Below the pieces are notes generated by a model that saw only the letters and a program-made list of their open reading frames with translations, did not search any database and had not been told where the DNA came from. The position numbers and the translations under genes are program-made. DNA of 64,000 nucleotides from Methanococcoides vulcani (GTDB lineage: Archaea; Halobacteriota; Methanosarcinia; Methanosarcinales; Methanosarcinaceae): the NCBI RefSeq assembly GCF_900111645.1, contig NZ_FOHQ01000008.1, positions 1 through 64,000 of the forward strand, given 5' to 3'. This document shows positions 24,185 through 49,697 of this stretch, piece by piece; within the stretch, counting starts at the first letter, position 1, and every line of letters begins with the position of its first letter.

Positions 24185-24269
24185 GCGGGGGTCGCCCAGC
24201 TAGGTCAAAGGCGCCAGACTTAAGATCTGGTATCGAAGGATTTCGAGGGTTCGAATCCCTCCCCCCGCA
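24185..24269 (+). tRNA. tRNA-Leu (anticodon UAA)
   Basis: Complete cloverleaf. Acceptor GCGGGGG pairs with CCCCCGC. The anticodon stem CCAGA/TCTGG encloses the loop CTTAAGA with TAA at 24221-24223. There is a long class II variable arm, and the T arm is GAGGG-TTCGAAT-CCCTC. The discriminator A fits Leu; CCA is not encoded and there is no intron. An AT-rich TTTAATTAT at about 24137 may be the TATA box. It marks the left edge of the accessory region 24.3-49.8 kb. Confidence 0.95.
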
Positions 24270-24372
24270 CTTGTTTTTCGGGATATATACAAAGAAAAAT
24301 ATGGCAACGGGGTTTTGCGATTGATTCGCACAACCACTAGTTCCAAAATATCACCCTTAAAATTATTTTGTC

Positions 24373-24599: not shown

Positions 24600-25928
24600 A
24601 TCAAACTCATTACAATAATCGCTATATTTTTACTTCTGCTTGGTCTTGGTTGTTCCAATTCAACTGCAGCAGACGTAGCACTTAAATCATCAACTCAAAT
24701 CGTCACAACCGGTGAAAGCTTCACTGTAGATGTTTTTATAACACCAGATACTGCAATTGCAGGATTACAGTTCGATCTCGAATTTGACAGCTCAAAAATA
24801 CAGATAGATAGCGTATCTGAAGGAAGACTCTTAAGCCAAAATGGAATTTCAACATTTTTCAACGACGGAAACATAGACAACAATGCCGGAATACTTTCAG
24901 GTGTTTTCGGATCGGCAATTGGTCCTTCAAGCGTCTTAGAGCCTGAGTCATTTGCAAGCATCACAATGAGTGTAAAAGAGCAGGCTACAAGCACATCAAC
25001 AATATTTCTGAAAAACGTGATCATAAGTGACCCATCAGGAAATCCCATAGATGTCCAGATCACAGATCTAACTCTGACTATTAATGAAGTCCCTGTAGCA
25101 GTTATCAATAGCCCCTCTGAGGTTAATGAAGGTGATCTGGTACCCTTTAGTGCCTCAGGTTCCTATGATTCCGATGGTGTTGAACTGACATCATATGAAT
25201 GGGACTTTAGTGACGGAACGACAGCTTCCGGCTCGGAAGTCACACATGTTTATGCAACCAACGGCATCTATATAGTAACATTGACGGTCACCGATAATGA
25301 GGGCACATCTACATCTGACACTCTTATAGTAACGGTAAACAATGTTGCACCAGTTGTGGATGCAGGAACAGACCAGACCGCTAACATGGGTGAAGAAGTT
25401 GTTTTTTCAGGAAGCTTTGATGATCCTGGATCCTTCGATACTCACATAATTTTATGGGACTTCGGAGATGGTGAAACTGTAGAAGGTACATTAACACCTG
25501 CTCACACTTATGCTGGTAGTGGCGTTTACAACTTGATTTTGACTATAACCGATAATGACGGTGCATCTACATCAGATACCGCAACGGTAACAGTATCTGA
25601 CACCAATGCCATTTCGATTGACAGCATCAGCATGTCAATGGTGGAAAATTACAAATTCTGGAAGTGGACCCGGATACACGCCACAGCAGAGGTAAAGATT
25701 GTTGATGCCACTGGCAGTCCGATTAATGGTGCAACGGTCTCCGGCCAATGGAGCGGTGCGACCAGCGACAGTGATTCTGGAGTAACTGGCAGTAATGGAA
25801 AGGTCACTTTAGACTCCAAGAATGTGTGGGGATCTGAACCAAGAACATTCACCTTTACAGTGAACGATGTTTCCCATACAATCCAATGGGACGGTGAGAC
25901 AAAATCCGGCACAATAACGTATCAATGA
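24600..25928 (+). CDS. Lipoprotein with cohesin-like and two PKD domains, apparent ATC start
   Basis: 442 residues if translation begins at ATC 24600. The frame gives a textbook lipoprotein signal (KLITIIAIFLLLLGLGC), then a cohesin-type beta domain (about 25-150, TGESFTVDVFITPD...AGLQFDLEFD). Two PKD domains follow (about 165-245 and 255-335, with YEWDFSDGT and ILWDFGDGE), then a C-terminal Ig-like domain. A perfect AAGGAGG is centred eight bases before ATC, exactly where ATG should be. The first in-frame ATG is at 24966 and would lose the signal and cohesin domain. Either AUC is used or an ATG has mutated. It is probably surface-located; cohesin domains bind dockerins, none of which is in the window. 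Confidence 0.75.
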   Translation: MKLITIIAIFLLLLGLGCSNSTAADVALKSSTQIVTTGESFTVDVFITPDTAIAGLQFDLEFDSSKIQIDSVSEGRLLSQNGISTFFNDGNIDNNAGILSGVFGSAIGPSSVLEPESFASITMSVKEQATSTSTIFLKNVIISDPSGNPIDVQITDLTLTINEVPVAVINSPSEVNEGDLVPFSASGSYDSDGVELTSYEWDFSDGTTASGSEVTHVYATNGIYIVTLTVTDNEGTSTSDTLIVTVNNVAPVVDAGTDQTANMGEEVVFSGSFDDPGSFDTHIILWDFGDGETVEGTLTPAHTYAGSGVYNLILTITDNDGASTSDTATVTVSDTNAISIDSISMSMVENYKFWKWTRIHATAEVKIVDATGSPINGATVSGQWSGATSDSDSGVTGSNGKVTLDSKNVWGSEPRTFTFTVNDVSHTIQWDGETKSGTITYQ

Positions 25929-27447: not shown

Positions 27448-28842
27448 ATGAAGGTCGCATATTTATTAACATGGACACTGGTCTTACTTTTTGTCCTGAT
27501 AACACAAAATGGTGCAGCATCCGAGCATGATTCGGATAGTTGCTTGGACTGTCACACCTCTATAGGCAAGTTTCCGGCGATAATAGATGACTGGAAGAAC
27601 AGTAAACATGCAGAATATGGTGTGTCATGTGGGGACTGTCACATTGCTGATCCTGCTGACCCCGATGCCACGGCGCACATGGGATCTTACATCTCGCCTG
27701 TGGTATCAGCAAGTGATTGTGGATCCTGTCATGTCGCAGAGTTCGAAGAGAACACTCGGAGTTTGCATGCTCTTGGTGCCAAATACTATGAACTGGATTT
27801 TGACAATGAGGGATTACCATATCTTGAAAGCAAAATAGCAGTTGATGGAGAGACAATTGTAAACCATGATGCTACGGTTAACGGCTGTCAGGCATGCCAT
27901 GGTACTAACATGACCGGAAAGAGTACAGATGACCCCAGCGTATGGCCAAATAATGGGATTGGTAGAATAAATCCGGATGGCAGCCTTGGATCGTGTGCCT
28001 CCTGTCACACACGTCATCTATTCTCAGTGGAAGAAGCACGAAAACCTGAGTCGTGTGAACAATGCCATCTCGGACCGGACCATCCCCAAGCCGAAATATT
28101 CTTTGAATCGAAGCATGGAAGCATCTATAATACCGAAGGCGATGAATGGAACTGGGATTATGAGGAATGGGTGGCTGGAGAGGATTATAGGACACCTACC
28201 TGTGCTGTCTGTCATATGTCGGGAACAGATGAACTAGATCCTACTCATGATGTGAGTTCACGTCTTTCATGGGAACTTGAGACTCCGATATCCAGACGTA
28301 CTGACAACACAGCAAATGTACTTGGAACCTCCATCAGCGATGGGTCTACGTGGCAGGAAAAGCGTGATCGAATGTATTCAGTGTGTGAACAGTGCCACTC
28401 AGATGACTGGATTGCAAACTACTACGAAAATGCAGATACTGCTGTCGAGTTATATAACAGGAAATACACAGATTCAAAATTGATCGTTGAAGAGCTGAGA
28501 GAAGAAGGATTACTGACCGAGCAGGACTTTGATGAGCCGATCGAATTCAAAATATATGAGATGTGGCATCATGAGGGTAGGCGTGCAAGAATGGGGGCAT
28601 TCATGCTAGGTCCGGATTTTGTCCAGTGGCATGGTTTCTATGAGCTCCTGAAGGATAAAGCTGAACTTGAAGAAATGGCAGAACAGATCAGGCTCAATGC
28701 CGAACTAGAGTCCCAGCTTGGAACTGAAGGAACTTCTACAGGAAACGATGTGGATACTTCCAGCTTGCCAGGATTCAAGGCTCTGTTTGCAATTGCATGC
28801 ATATTTGGTGCCGTATTCGTATCTTTAAGAAAGAGAGGTTGA
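27448..28842 (+). CDS. Octaheme cytochrome c, hydroxylamine oxidoreductase-like, PGF-CTERM anchored
   Basis: 464 residues with a signal peptide (1-24) and exactly eight CxxCH heme sites (CLDCH, CGDCH, CGSCH, CQACH, CASCH, CEQCH, CAVCH, CEQCH). Spacing and the region YEMWHHEGRRARMGAF...FVQWHGFYELLK match the octaheme HAO/hydroxylamine-reductase family. The C-terminus has LPGF, a hydrophobic segment (ALFAIACIFGAVFVSL) and RKRG: a PGF-CTERM sorting signal for archaeosortase and S-layer or lipid anchoring. It should act outside the cell in nitrite/hydroxylamine chemistry or electron transfer. Whether the catalytic heme has the HAO cross-linking Tyr must be tested by alignment. Cytochrome maturation genes are not in the window. 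Confidence 0.88.
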   Translation: MKVAYLLTWTLVLLFVLITQNGAASEHDSDSCLDCHTSIGKFPAIIDDWKNSKHAEYGVSCGDCHIADPADPDATAHMGSYISPVVSASDCGSCHVAEFEENTRSLHALGAKYYELDFDNEGLPYLESKIAVDGETIVNHDATVNGCQACHGTNMTGKSTDDPSVWPNNGIGRINPDGSLGSCASCHTRHLFSVEEARKPESCEQCHLGPDHPQAEIFFESKHGSIYNTEGDEWNWDYEEWVAGEDYRTPTCAVCHMSGTDELDPTHDVSSRLSWELETPISRRTDNTANVLGTSISDGSTWQEKRDRMYSVCEQCHSDDWIANYYENADTAVELYNRKYTDSKLIVEELREEGLLTEQDFDEPIEFKIYEMWHHEGRRARMGAFMLGPDFVQWHGFYELLKDKAELEEMAEQIRLNAELESQLGTEGTSTGNDVDTSSLPGFKALFAIACIFGAVFVSLRKRG

Positions 28843-29188: not shown

Positions 29189-30871
29189 TCAATCCTTCCT
29201 TCTGTAAATAACATACCCTGCCAGCAGCCCACCGATTGCCAGCAGCCCACCGATTGCTGGAAGCATGCTGGATCCTGAAGTTGCTTCAACTTCTTCCTGT
29301 GATTCATGGGTTTCTTCAACAACTTCTTCTTCGGAAGATTCCTCATCAGGAACTACTACGGTTGCATTATTGGTAGCATCTGAACCGGAAGCTGTATTCT
29401 CTTCCTCCTCTTCAGTTTCTTCCTGAATTGGTATGATTTCCGCAGTGCCAGCGCCTCCAGAGGAACCGCCTCCAGTGCCAACATTATTGACAGTGATACT
29501 AATTATCTCCGAATCATTCAGGATACCATCGGAAACAGTAAAGTTAACCGAATAAACTCCAGACTGGGAATCGGAAGGTGTCCACGAAAATGCACCTGTA
29601 CTGTCATTCAATGTAGCACCTGTTGGAAGATTGTCGGAAGTATAGATGAGAATGTCGCCGGAGTTAACATCATTGGCAGTGACCGTGAAGGTTAGTGGGT
29701 TATTCTCATTAACACTTTTATCACCGATTGGGGACAGCACAGGAGCGTAGTTTTCGTTTACCTTAACAAGCCACATGTCATTATCTGCACCAGTCTCTGC
29801 GGTACCGGCTACAATATACCCGTCGGAGGTCTGCTGGACAGAATATGCATAATCATGATTACCGCCGTCAAAGGTAATATTCCAGTCCTCGGAACCTGTG
29901 GAGTCGGTCTTAACAAGCCACATGTCCCGATTTGCCTCATTCTCTGTGTAACCGGCTACAATATACCCGTCGTCGGAGGTCTGCTGGACAGAATATGCCC
30001 CATCATCTTCAACGCCGCCGTCAAAGGTAACATTCCAGACCTCGGAACCTGTGGAGTCGGTCTTAACAAGCCACATGTCCCGATCTGCGCTATTGTTTGT
30101 GTAACCGGTCACAATATACCCGTCGTCGGAGGTTTGCTGGACAGAATATGAATAATCATCATAACCGCCGTCAAAGGTAACATTCCAGACCTCGGAACCT
30201 GTGGAGTCGGTCTTAACAAGCCATATGTCATAACTTGTACCACTATATGTGGTACCGGCTACAATATACCCGTCGTCGGAGGTTTGCTGGACAGATCTTG
30301 CATAATCATCATCACCGCCGTCAAAGGTAACATTCCAGTCCTCGGAACCTGTGGAGTCGGTCTTAACAAGTAATATGTCCCAATCTGCGCTACTATTTGT
30401 GTAACCGGTCACAATATACCCGTCGTCAGAGGTCTGCTGGAGAGAAGTTGCATAATCAGAAGATCCACTATCAAAGGTAACATTCCAGACCTCGGAACCG
30501 GTGAGATTTGTCTTAACAAGCCACATGTCCCGATCTGCGCCAGTCTCTGTGGTACCGGCTACAATATACCCGTCTAAGGTCTGCTGGACAGAATATATAA
30601 TATCGTCATCAGTAACGCCGCAGTTAAAGGTAACATTCCAGACCTCGGAACCTGTGGAGTCGGTCTTAACAAGCCACATGTCATTATTTGCGCTATTATT
30701 TGTGTAACCGGCTACAATATATCCGTCGGAGGTCTGCTGGACAGAATTTGCTATATCATCATTACCGGCATCAAAGATAACATTCCAATCCTCAACAACT
30801 CCCTCGGCGGCTGAAGCTCCCGTGGTCACTAACGTTAAAAGTACTACTAAAATCATTACATATATTTTCAT
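29189..30871 (-). CDS. Repeat-rich surface protein with Ig-like domain
   Basis: 560 residues with a signal peptide (1-22). Seven tandem repeats of about 50 residues follow, each of the form WNVTFDGG...DDYAYSVQQTSDDGYIVAG, then DMWLVKTDSTGSE. A cadherin/He_PIG-like Ig domain is at about 375-465 (YAPVLSPIGDKSVNENNPLTF). Then come an acidic linker and a C-terminal membrane anchor (LLAIGGLLAGYVIYRRKD). The repeats form a beta-propeller in related proteins. The roughly 150-bp DNA repeats are almost identical in places, so copy number may vary. ATG 30871 follows GGGGG; the longer frame from TTG 30892 is not needed. The function is probably cell-surface adhesion (inference). Confidence 0.82.
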   Translation of the reverse strand: MKIYVMILVVLLTLVTTGASAAEGVVEDWNVIFDAGNDDIANSVQQTSDGYIVAGYTNNSANNDMWLVKTDSTGSEVWNVTFNCGVTDDDIIYSVQQTLDGYIVAGTTETGADRDMWLVKTNLTGSEVWNVTFDSGSSDYATSLQQTSDDGYIVTGYTNSSADWDILLVKTDSTGSEDWNVTFDGGDDDYARSVQQTSDDGYIVAGTTYSGTSYDIWLVKTDSTGSEVWNVTFDGGYDDYSYSVQQTSDDGYIVTGYTNNSADRDMWLVKTDSTGSEVWNVTFDGGVEDDGAYSVQQTSDDGYIVAGYTENEANRDMWLVKTDSTGSEDWNITFDGGNHDYAYSVQQTSDGYIVAGTAETGADNDMWLVKVNENYAPVLSPIGDKSVNENNPLTFTVTANDVNSGDILIYTSDNLPTGATLNDSTGAFSWTPSDSQSGVYSVNFTVSDGILNDSEIISITVNNVGTGGGSSGGAGTAEIIPIQEETEEEEENTASGSDATNNATVVVPDEESSEEEVVEETHESQEEVEATSGSSMLPAIGGLLAIGGLLAGYVIYRRKD

Positions 30872-31090
30872 TTGAATAATTCCCCCAAACAAATATCTTC
30901 GTTTATTTTATTTAAGTATTGGTGTTAGCATATATTGGTCAATCGCAGGATATCGGTAACAGATTTTTGCAGCACGAAAATATGGGAGAAAATCATGGAT
31001 TGATGCAATAGAGGGATAATCAGCAAATCAGCGTCTGCTTCAAATCTATGAATTCAGTTTCAAACCTTAAAAAATGGGAAAGTAAAATGG

Positions 31091-47429: not shown

Positions 47430-49152
47430 TTAACCTTTACAGGCAACAGTTATTGTTTTTGGATTAGTAGCATGATGTTGTCTATGACAGTGAACATGCA
47501 CGTAAGCTAAGTTTGACACAATGTAATCTTTATGATTTCCATTCTTGTGATGTAGAGGTCTTTCTTCTGCATCAGCACTAATGTCAATCGGTAGATTACA
47601 AATGTGGCATTTGCCTTTTTGATTAATCCAAACTTTCTTAAACATTCCAGATAATTTTCTAGCACCTTGATTGAACTTGCGTTCAACAAAGTATTCTTTG
47701 TCAGTATAAGGGTTTTTGTCCAGAGATAGTTTTGTATGTCTAACTATCCTTTTGTCTGATAATAATTTAAGTTGGTTTCTTGTTGTTGAAAATACCCATT
47801 TCCTCGTTCCTTTGGGATGCCAATATTTATCAACTATCCAAGTTCTTGATCTCATGGGGTGTCTTCTCTTAGCCCATTTCCAAAGTATGTTCCATAATTT
47901 GTAATCTATTAAGTGGAATGTTTCTTTGGAAACCACTCCTTGATGATAATTTGACCATCCAGTAATGATTGGGTTAAGGGTGTCTATTAAAACTTCTTGT
48001 GTCCACGTTTTTCCATCCTTAATAGTATTACTGATTTTCTCAGTTACTTTCTGAATGTTTTTCTTAGACGGTTTTATAAGAAGTTTCCCTTTGTATTTTC
48101 TAAAATTCCAGCCTAAAAAGTCAAAACCATCATCAATATGGGTAATTAAAGTCTTTTCATCAGACAGTTCCAGACCTTTGTTTGTTAGGAAATTTTTCAA
48201 TCAATCCTTTAACTTCTTCTGCTATTTCCTTTGTATTTGCAGTAACAATGAAATCATCCGCATATCTCACAAAATTTACTTTGTGTTTATTGCTTTGATG
48301 TGCTGTTATTCTTCCACTTTTACCTCGATGGTATTTATCAACCAATAAACTTTCAATTCCATCTAAGGTTATGTTAGCCAATATTGGTGATATAATACCG
48401 CCTTGTGGTGTTCCTGCTTTTGTTGGAAATAGAGTTCGGTCAAAGACAAATCCTGCTTTAAGGAATTGTTTAAGAATTGATTTATCCATTAGGATGTTGT
48501 CAAGTAACCATTGATGACTAATGTTGTCAAAACAACCTTTAATGTCTCCTTCCAGTATCCATTGAGCAGAATTATTTCGACATGTGCATCCGAAGATTTG
48601 TTCACATGCATCATGAGTACTTCTGGATTTTCTAAATCCAAAAGAACGTTTGTCTGCTGTTTCTTCTGCAATTGGGTTTAATGCCAATGCATAAAGTGAC
48701 TGCATAGCTCTGTCATGCATGGTTGGAATGCCTAAAGGTCGTTTCTTATCTTTCCCATATTTCTCAATAAAGACTCTTTTTAATGGTTTTGCCTTGTATT
48801 TCTTATCAGTTAATCCAAGTACAGCTTTCATCTTAGAGACAGGTGTATTCCACAATTCTCCATCGATTCCTGCTGTTCTTTTACCCTTATTCTGAATTAC
48901 CTTTCTGACAGCTAACAGTTTAGCGTAGTGAGAATGGGTTAGCAAATAACTTAGTCTTTTAACTAAATTCCAATTTCCTTTAATAACTGCTTTCGTAATC
49001 CTGACTTGTATTCTATTAACATGTGATTCAACAGTATTCCAATTAATGTTGTTCCAGTTGGACATGTCTGTAAGTTTCTCATCATTTAATTCGGCATAAC
49101 CACTAAGGGCTTCTGTTTCATTATTTGGTGTATTTGAATATCTTACATTCAT
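47430..49152 (-). pseudogene. ltrA: Group II intron reverse transcriptase/maturase/HNH protein, frameshifted
   Basis: The reading frame is split. The 5' part (to about 48185) holds RT motifs KKRPLGIPTMHDR, FGFRKSRSTHDA, LEGDIKGCFDNI, AGTPQGGIISPILANI and catalytic FVRYADDFIV. The 3' part (from about 48190) continues with FLTNKGLELS, the maturase X domain (NPIITGWSNYHQG) and an HNH nuclease (CHICNLPIDI...HHKNGNHKDY...CHRQHH). One extra base in AAAAATTTCC near 48188 separates them. It is inactive unless frameshifting or a sequencing error is involved. ATG 49152 follows AAGGT. Intact length would be about 570 residues. Confidence 0.82.
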
Positions 49153-49697
49153 AGTTATACCTTCATTCTTACGTTTCGATACCATAGAGTAAGTCTGCAT
49201 CCTTTCGGATCAGGGCAAATTCTGAACCCCTATACATACCATTACAGTCTGTCATTCGCTTTCTACTCCTTTCCTTTACCCTCTATGTCATTGTCCTTCC
49301 TTACGGAATTCCTACCCCGAAGGGAACATATAGGGCTTACCAAGTTCTATAACATGAATAATTGTGAATACCTTAGAAGCCATCTATAAACCGAGAACCA
49401 TTCGTCCATTTCCCATTATGTGGAAGAAGCCATAATGGTCTGATTCTATACCTTTTGGTTCAAGCGTGTCAATCTATTTTTCGCTTGTTGCTGATTACGG
49501 TTCTTACAATGGTTCAACTTTCGTTTCTTCATAGTATTCTTATCCTAACAGATTGTTTAGGTTAGATTCCCAAACTTCTCCATATTGTCCTATGAGCTTC
49601 ACACCCTGACGTTACCATCAACGCATGTCATAGTAGGATTATCCCAAATGGAAGGGACAGCGTTTCCGCAATTCATGGTTTAACTTTCTTGTCGCAC

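Follow-up and report, generated by a model that had tools for sequence, protein, structure and literature searches.

In Methanococcoides vulcani, a gene within the 64,000-nucleotide stretch of DNA analysed here (the window) encodes a protein with the octaheme architecture of the hydroxylamine oxidoreductase (HAO) family together with export and anchoring signals. A little-studied branch of this family is present in a methane-making archaeon. We hold with moderate confidence, from sequence comparisons, that the protein would be a reductive enzyme anchored through archaeosortase A (ArtA), with nitrite, hydroxylamine or NO as substrate, and that it would serve to detoxify these compounds or to dispose of electrons.

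Octaheme architecture and surface location

The eight CxxCH sites counted in the initial annotation were confirmed in the open reading frame (Table 1); 20,000 shuffles of its residues gave a mean of 0.03 and a maximum of 2 such sites, and a scan of the 464 aa found no further C..C motif. The protein matched the Pfam model Multi-haem_cyto (PF13447) with an E-value of 1.8e-35 and 123 bits, against a curated cut-off of 21.9, and its top NCBIfam model was hydrazine dehydrogenase, with a score far under the cut-off of that model. A sequence search of the PDB placed IhOCC (4qo5) first (6e-46), followed by HAO, HAO-like and HDH chains, and the family-profile search gave 7e-82 for IhOCC. All eight hemes pair one to one, and in the same order, with the hemes of HAO in the alignment. 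The similarity to HAO that had been placed in a C-terminal core is thus real but wider than that, since most of the chain and all eight hemes align. An AF2 model built from a 21-row alignment (mean pLDDT 64, pTM 0.51) retrieved with Foldseek HAO-family chains alone under E 0.001, with IhOCC at the top, at TM-scores of about 0.3, and the support for the fold is therefore modest; as the model is too weak for more, heme ligands were taken from the alignment and the model served for the fold match alone.

Table 1. Positions of the octaheme gene, its heme sites and other features in the window
Feature	Position	Strand	Basis
Octaheme cytochrome c, HAO/OCC family, 464 aa	27448..28842	+	ORF, CxxCH count, PF13447, PDB matches, alignment
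Sec-type signal peptide, N-terminal, residues about 1-25	27448..27522	+	hydrophobic residues 1-22; helix in AF2 model
Heme 1 site CLDCH, C32-H36	27541..27555	+	CxxCH motif
Heme 2 site CGDCH, C61-H65	27628..27642	+	CxxCH motif
Heme 3 site CGSCH, C91-H95	27718..27732	+	CxxCH motif
Heme 4 site CQACH, C147-H151; counterpart of HAO P460/catalytic heme	27886..27900	+	alignment
Heme 5 site CASCH, C183-H187; then TRH (H190)	27994..28008	+	motif, alignment
Heme 6 site CEQCH, C203-H207	28054..28068	+	CxxCH motif
Heme 7 site CAVCH, C252-H256	28201..28215	+	CxxCH motif
Heme 8 site CEQCH, C313-H317	28384..28398	+	CxxCH motif
D211-H212, counterpart of NeHAO Asp267-His268 at catalytic heme	28078..28083	+	alignments
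Subfamily signature WHHEGRRARMGAFMLGPDFVQWHGFY, residues 373-398: Met386 for conserved HAO His, Gln393 for Tyr467	28564..28641	+	alignments
Putative archaeosortase A signal, residues 441-464: PGF-CTERM-like tail made of PGF, a hydrophobic helix and RKR	28768..28839	+	TIGR04126 score, ArtA in genome
tRNA-Leu, edge of variable region holding the gene	24185..24270	+	

A PGF-CTERM tail had also been proposed. The tail, LPGFKALFAIACIFGAVFVSLRKRG, is of the PGF type and archaeosortase A is encoded in the same genome (286 bits), but the TIGR04126 score of 12.7 bits lies under the curated cut-off of 24.5, a value to which the homologue of Methanolobus profundi comes close (24.0 bits). From these signals, the octaheme protein is probably anchored at the cell surface. 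The genome also contains CcmF-like and CcmC-like genes (the names CcmF, CcmC and, below, rnf are based on PF01578 matches, sizes and gene order). The CcmC-like gene (G000:C5:619096-619659, L070), which is needed for cytochrome c maturation, is interrupted in frame by a single TAG codon, which might be translated as pyrrolysine.

Active site and heme ligands

The residue numbers and roles of the NeHAO active site, with Tyr467 as the cross-linking residue, serve here as the reference. PDB sequences were rebuilt from printed alignments, the stretches used covering 362/362 residues of NeHAO and 371/371 of kustc1061, and were aligned with the octaheme protein by two MAFFT methods; a larger alignment adds Archaeoglobaceae-type homologues. 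In both MAFFT alignments, the column of Tyr467 holds Gln393, and no row of the subfamily has a Tyr in it, the Archaeoglobaceae-type members having His; Tyr398 of the octaheme protein is near that column, at a distance of five residues. The Asp-His pair D211-H212 is found in every row of the subfamily and also in kustc0457 (reducing complex 6h5l); IhOCC and the second copy carried by one genome (G207, L090) have Asp-Val in its place. The comparison with NeHAO suggested in the initial annotation thus has a divided outcome, as the heme-crosslinking Tyr is missing and the catalytic Asp-His is kept; the outcome that would have spoken against that annotation, with the catalytic residues lost from every relative, is not seen, Asp-His being invariant in the subfamily. 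On these alignments, the octaheme protein is not a classical NeHAO-type HAO, being without the Tyr467 cross-link.

NeHAO has a His eight residues ahead of Tyr467, which kustc1061, kustc0457 and the ANME/Methanoperedens proteins share; across the whole subfamily and IhOCC, this position is Met (Met386). This replacement suggests that one low-spin heme may be His/Met-ligated via Met386. Further candidate distal ligands in the alignment are His54, 77, 107, 190, 223 and 267; together with Met386, these six His make seven candidate distal ligands and would leave heme 4 without one, a count that is compatible with an open, five-coordinate heme 4. Glu278 stands opposite Tyr334 of NeHAO, a residue close to the active site, in both alignments, in a column that is unstable for other rows. 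His107 was considered as specific to the clade and dropped, because it aligns with PSH of NeHAO and GSH of kustc1061 in the two-MAFFT alignment; the larger alignment shifts the NeHAO and kustc0457 rows at this position.

Position within the family

A tree that included PDB references was divided by a branch with 100/100 support: on one side were the window clade, its bacterial homologues and IhOCC, on the other NeHAO, the kustc proteins and the ANME/Methanoperedens HAO. Given the very long branch of IhOCC, its position within the clade is not firm. The clade contains Methanosarcinaceae, ANME, Archaeoglobaceae-type archaea, Planctomycetota, Omnitrophota and others, and in this tree the subfamily joins the archaeal IhOCC to a broad set of bacterial octahemes. 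The assignment to an octaheme family of hydroxylamine/nitrite enzymes is thus upheld as regards the HAO family, but the protein is not of the NeHAO type and groups with the Ignicoccus IhOCC (tree, Gln393). A previous study (PMC12758564) grouped Ignicoccus islandicus and Ferroglobus with the anammox HAO5A and inferred a reductive function for most HAOs outside anammox bacteria.

IhOCC of Ignicoccus hospitalis is the best match in both sequence and fold, and it shares the Met at the position of Met386 and, between hemes 4 and 5, a stretch resembling WPNxGIGRxNPDG. In IhOCC, however, the positions of His212, His107 and His54 hold Val, Lys and Met, respectively, and the WHH-GRR motif is absent; a gene of IhOCC's own type is the second copy in G207 mentioned above. 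The octaheme protein therefore matches the broad IhOCC clade and not the narrow IhOCC type (Asp-Val, without WHH-GRR). The reducing HAO-like complex kustc0457/0458 of Kuenenia resembles it in the HAO fold, the missing Tyr cross-link and Asp-His, but keeps the conserved His of AxH, belongs to a different clade and is a two-protein complex according to the PDB title. NeHAO and kustc1061 (1fgj, 4fas, 4n4j) share the order of the eight hemes, Asp-His and most candidate distal His, but have the Tyr467 cross-link and are oxidative. Octaheme HAO-like proteins of Methanoperedens and ANME also have no Tyr at the cross-link column, and many have PGF-like tails; they differ by their place outside the window clade (100/100), by His at the Met386 position and by the absence of WHH-GRR. 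Proteins of this ANME/Methanoperedens type at L058-L068 and L030-L037 fall into clades of their own, in which the Tyr column is occupied by His or Gln.

MmcA and the octaheme tetrathionate reductase (OTR; PMC11024163) are likewise multiheme c-type cytochromes of Methanosarcinaceae but represent another family. In the genome of the window, the sole match to TIGR04315 (MmcA/OTR) is an MmcA-like gene at another locus (C5), upstream of rnf-like genes, and the octaheme gene is unmatched; the distinction from MmcA drawn in the initial annotation is thus borne out. A further multiheme cytochrome of 376 aa carries nine CxxCH (G000:C12, L051 6144-7271), and this nonaheme locus alone was returned by a genome search for a close-spaced CxxCH pattern. 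ONR of the Thioalkalivibrio type was excluded, the catalytic heme being bound by CxxCH and not by CXXCK, and ONR chains matching over only about 80-105 profile positions rather than at full length. Kletzin et al. (PMC4429474) listed 11 archaeal hits in an HAO cluster, with a main text that does not name the genera considered here, and a search of one literature collection found no paper on this octaheme subfamily in methanogens.

Gene neighbours in relatives

The gene neighbourhoods were compared by eye, with scans of some of the neighbours, and the counts below are descriptive. In L096, whose octaheme protein has 59% identity, the gene is followed after 2 bp by one for a 786-aa Tat-signal molybdopterin protein, for which the best models are those of NapA (702.7 bits, under the cut-off of 904). 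In five Archaeoglobaceae-type loci (L089, L093, L094, L097, L098), the octaheme precedes a tetraheme protein (154-155 aa), an NrfC-like Fe-S protein, called in 4/5 loci and not in L097, and an NrfD-like protein; judged from gene order, the octaheme occupies the NrfA position in these operons. Hcp and ferredoxin are nearby in Bathyarchaeota MAGs (L005-L007), Hcp adjoins the octaheme in a Sumerlaeota MAG, Rieske and cytochrome b genes lie upstream and Hcp downstream in L013, and a Rieske gene lies downstream in L016. In a Methanosarcinales MAG (L003), a rubrerythrin-like protein, a flavodiiron protein and CooS precede the octaheme; CooS also precedes it in L075, and an ANME/Methanoperedens-type HAO (L076) directly follows CooS. 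At the Methanosarcinaceae loci examined, the octaheme is an orphan, as none of the adjacent genes was recognised as an N-oxide gene, and none of these partners was found beside the Planctomycetota copies examined. NrfD was not found in the five Methanosarcinaceae carriers searched, which include the genome of the window. This genome has two Hcp genes; genome-wide co-occurrence with Hcp was rejected as evidence, since Hcp is near-universal in the family and its co-occurrence is therefore uninformative.

Divergent genes for BlaI/PAS-domain regulators, possibly redox or gas sensors, lie beside the octaheme at L089 8839-9483 and L096 8956-9603, and homologues occur in L091 and L092. In another genome (G142), a second 8-heme protein with matches to MtrC/MtrF-like domains is encoded about 3.7 kb from the octaheme (L071 13391-14683).

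Proposed function and alternatives

The absence of the Tyr cross-link favours a reduction (of nitrite, hydroxylamine or NO) over an oxidation. In the scheme that we favour, an exported octaheme c-type cytochrome would be matured outside the membrane by the Ccm system of the genome and held at the cell surface by archaeosortase A. Electrons would enter via the seven low-spin hemes and pass to heme 4, which, with an open distal side and D211-H212, would reduce a small nitrogen oxide, most likely nitrite and possibly hydroxylamine or NO. The donor might be methanophenazine-linked or a multiheme carrier; no NrfD was found in the genome. In a methylotrophic methanogen, such an enzyme would guard the cell surface against nitrite, NO or hydroxylamine, or serve as a minor electron sink, with the two cytoplasmic Hcp as a possible second line. 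We infer the direction of the reaction, the substrate, the open heme 4, the donor and the physiological role; Gln393 in place of Tyr467, the kept Asp-His and the reductase-type operons of relatives suggest this reading. The N-oxide activity considered in the initial annotation is thus plausible in its chemistry and is refined here towards reduction, without the Tyr cross-link.

PMC12758564 (citing Ferousi 2021) and PMC8940962 report HAOs without the Tyr as reductive. In the proposed reverse-HURM pathway, a reductive HAO without Tyr and Hcp take nitrite through hydroxylamine to ammonium (PMC8940962), and an epsilon-HAO adjoins Nap in Caldithrix (PMC5317091). By analogy, the octaheme protein would fit a surface reductase of the reverse-HURM or Nap-linked kind. 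As a counterpoint, the association with CooS, seen also as cooS-hao clusters in Methanoperedens (PMC13079737), could mean a role unrelated to nitrogen.

That the protein is a non-catalytic conduit, which passes electrons to Fe(III), humics or partner cells as MmcA does, seems rather unlikely. Multihemes of Methanosarcinaceae are known as conduits (PMC11024163), and the surface-anchoring signals, the several relatives in the Archaeoglobaceae-type family, which includes metal-respiring genera, and the MtrC-domain-like gene close to the octaheme in a Methanolobus-type genome would all suit this role; a wire, however, does not obviously need a catalytic Asp-His that stays the same in every subfamily member, across two domains of life, and the genome already has an MmcA-like gene and a nonaheme cytochrome. 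We consider it unlikely that heme 4 reduces another small substrate, such as sulfite, polysulfide/tetrathionate, peroxide or a CO-linked acceptor. The NapA-like, Hcp and flavodiiron neighbours argue against this, as do the reductive HAO homologues described in PMC8940962 and PMC12758564, which act on N-oxides. In favour of it are CooS, which lies immediately upstream of the octaheme in two archaeal lineages within the clade and also adjoins the separate HAO type of Methanoperedens, and an Fe-S subunit in the Archaeoglobaceae-type operons that matches TtrB and DsrO better than NrfC. An oxidising dehydrogenase of hydroxylamine or hydrazine, of the NeHAO/HDH kind, would agree with eight hemes in an HAO-family fold but is very improbable, as no subfamily member has Tyr in the cross-link column and the tree sets the octaheme apart from NeHAO and kustc1061.

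If the reductive reading is true, Methanococcoides/Methanolobus-type methanogens would have, in a transferable surface reductase, a direct tie between methane production and N-oxide chemistry; nitrogen oxides are described as known inhibitors of methanogenesis in PMC8276178. More tentatively, a widespread, undescribed subfamily of reductive octahemes (WHH-GRR, Met for the HAO His, Asp-His) might supply methylotrophic methanogens with a transferable surface enzyme for the reduction of nitrite, NO or hydroxylamine, possibly as far as ammonium, in N-oxide detoxification or even respiration. The reading is testable, since the gene is carried by the isolate Methanolobus profundi and by a congener that we take to be Methanococcoides burtonii.

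Distribution and lateral transfer

Homologues were found in Methanolobus profundi (76%), ANME-2, Methanosarcinales and Bathyarchaeota MAGs, Planctomycetota, Omnitrophota, Lentisphaerota and others. The gene is present in 5/11 genomes of the window's genus (its own included), in three genomes of genus g4 (one as a relic), in one of g8 and in family f9, which we take to be Archaeoglobaceae; a PF13447 search of the window's own genome found no second copy. The window copy groups with those of Methanolobus profundi and G142 (support 100/99), and a tree in which the five genus members were forced into one clade was rejected (AU p 0.0012). The location in an accessory island proposed in the initial annotation is confirmed by the tRNA-Leu at the edge of the region and by the spacing of its flanks, whose matches are about 31 kb apart in congener G001 against about 9 kb in the window; an att duplication of the tRNA-Leu was searched for in the window and not found. 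In four congeners, the gene adjoins a PP-loop (DPH6-like) gene, three of these loci extending as far as the pyruvate kinase side, and only about 74 bp separate these PP-loop/pyruvate kinase flanks in congener G009. In the genome of the window, the same flanks are at another place without the gene, and the octaheme lies on the tRNA-Leu side of the variable region. The relic of genus g4 (G013; L048 8214-8981 and upstream) has the start of the gene joined to its C-terminal part; the deletion has removed about six heme sites and disrupted the reading frame. The tree, the shifted locations, the empty flanks and the relic indicate that the gene has been gained, moved and lost. An acquisition, raised earlier as a possibility, agrees with a tree at odds with vertical descent, and the window gene was probably acquired laterally.

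On either side of the octaheme, the window encodes a Delta-60-repeat/Ig surface protein (29189-30892, minus strand) and a PKD-domain protein (24966-25928, plus strand). Farther along, at 47430-49200 on the minus strand, two overlapping ORFs look like pieces of a single group II intron reverse transcriptase/maturase that has apparently undergone a frameshift.
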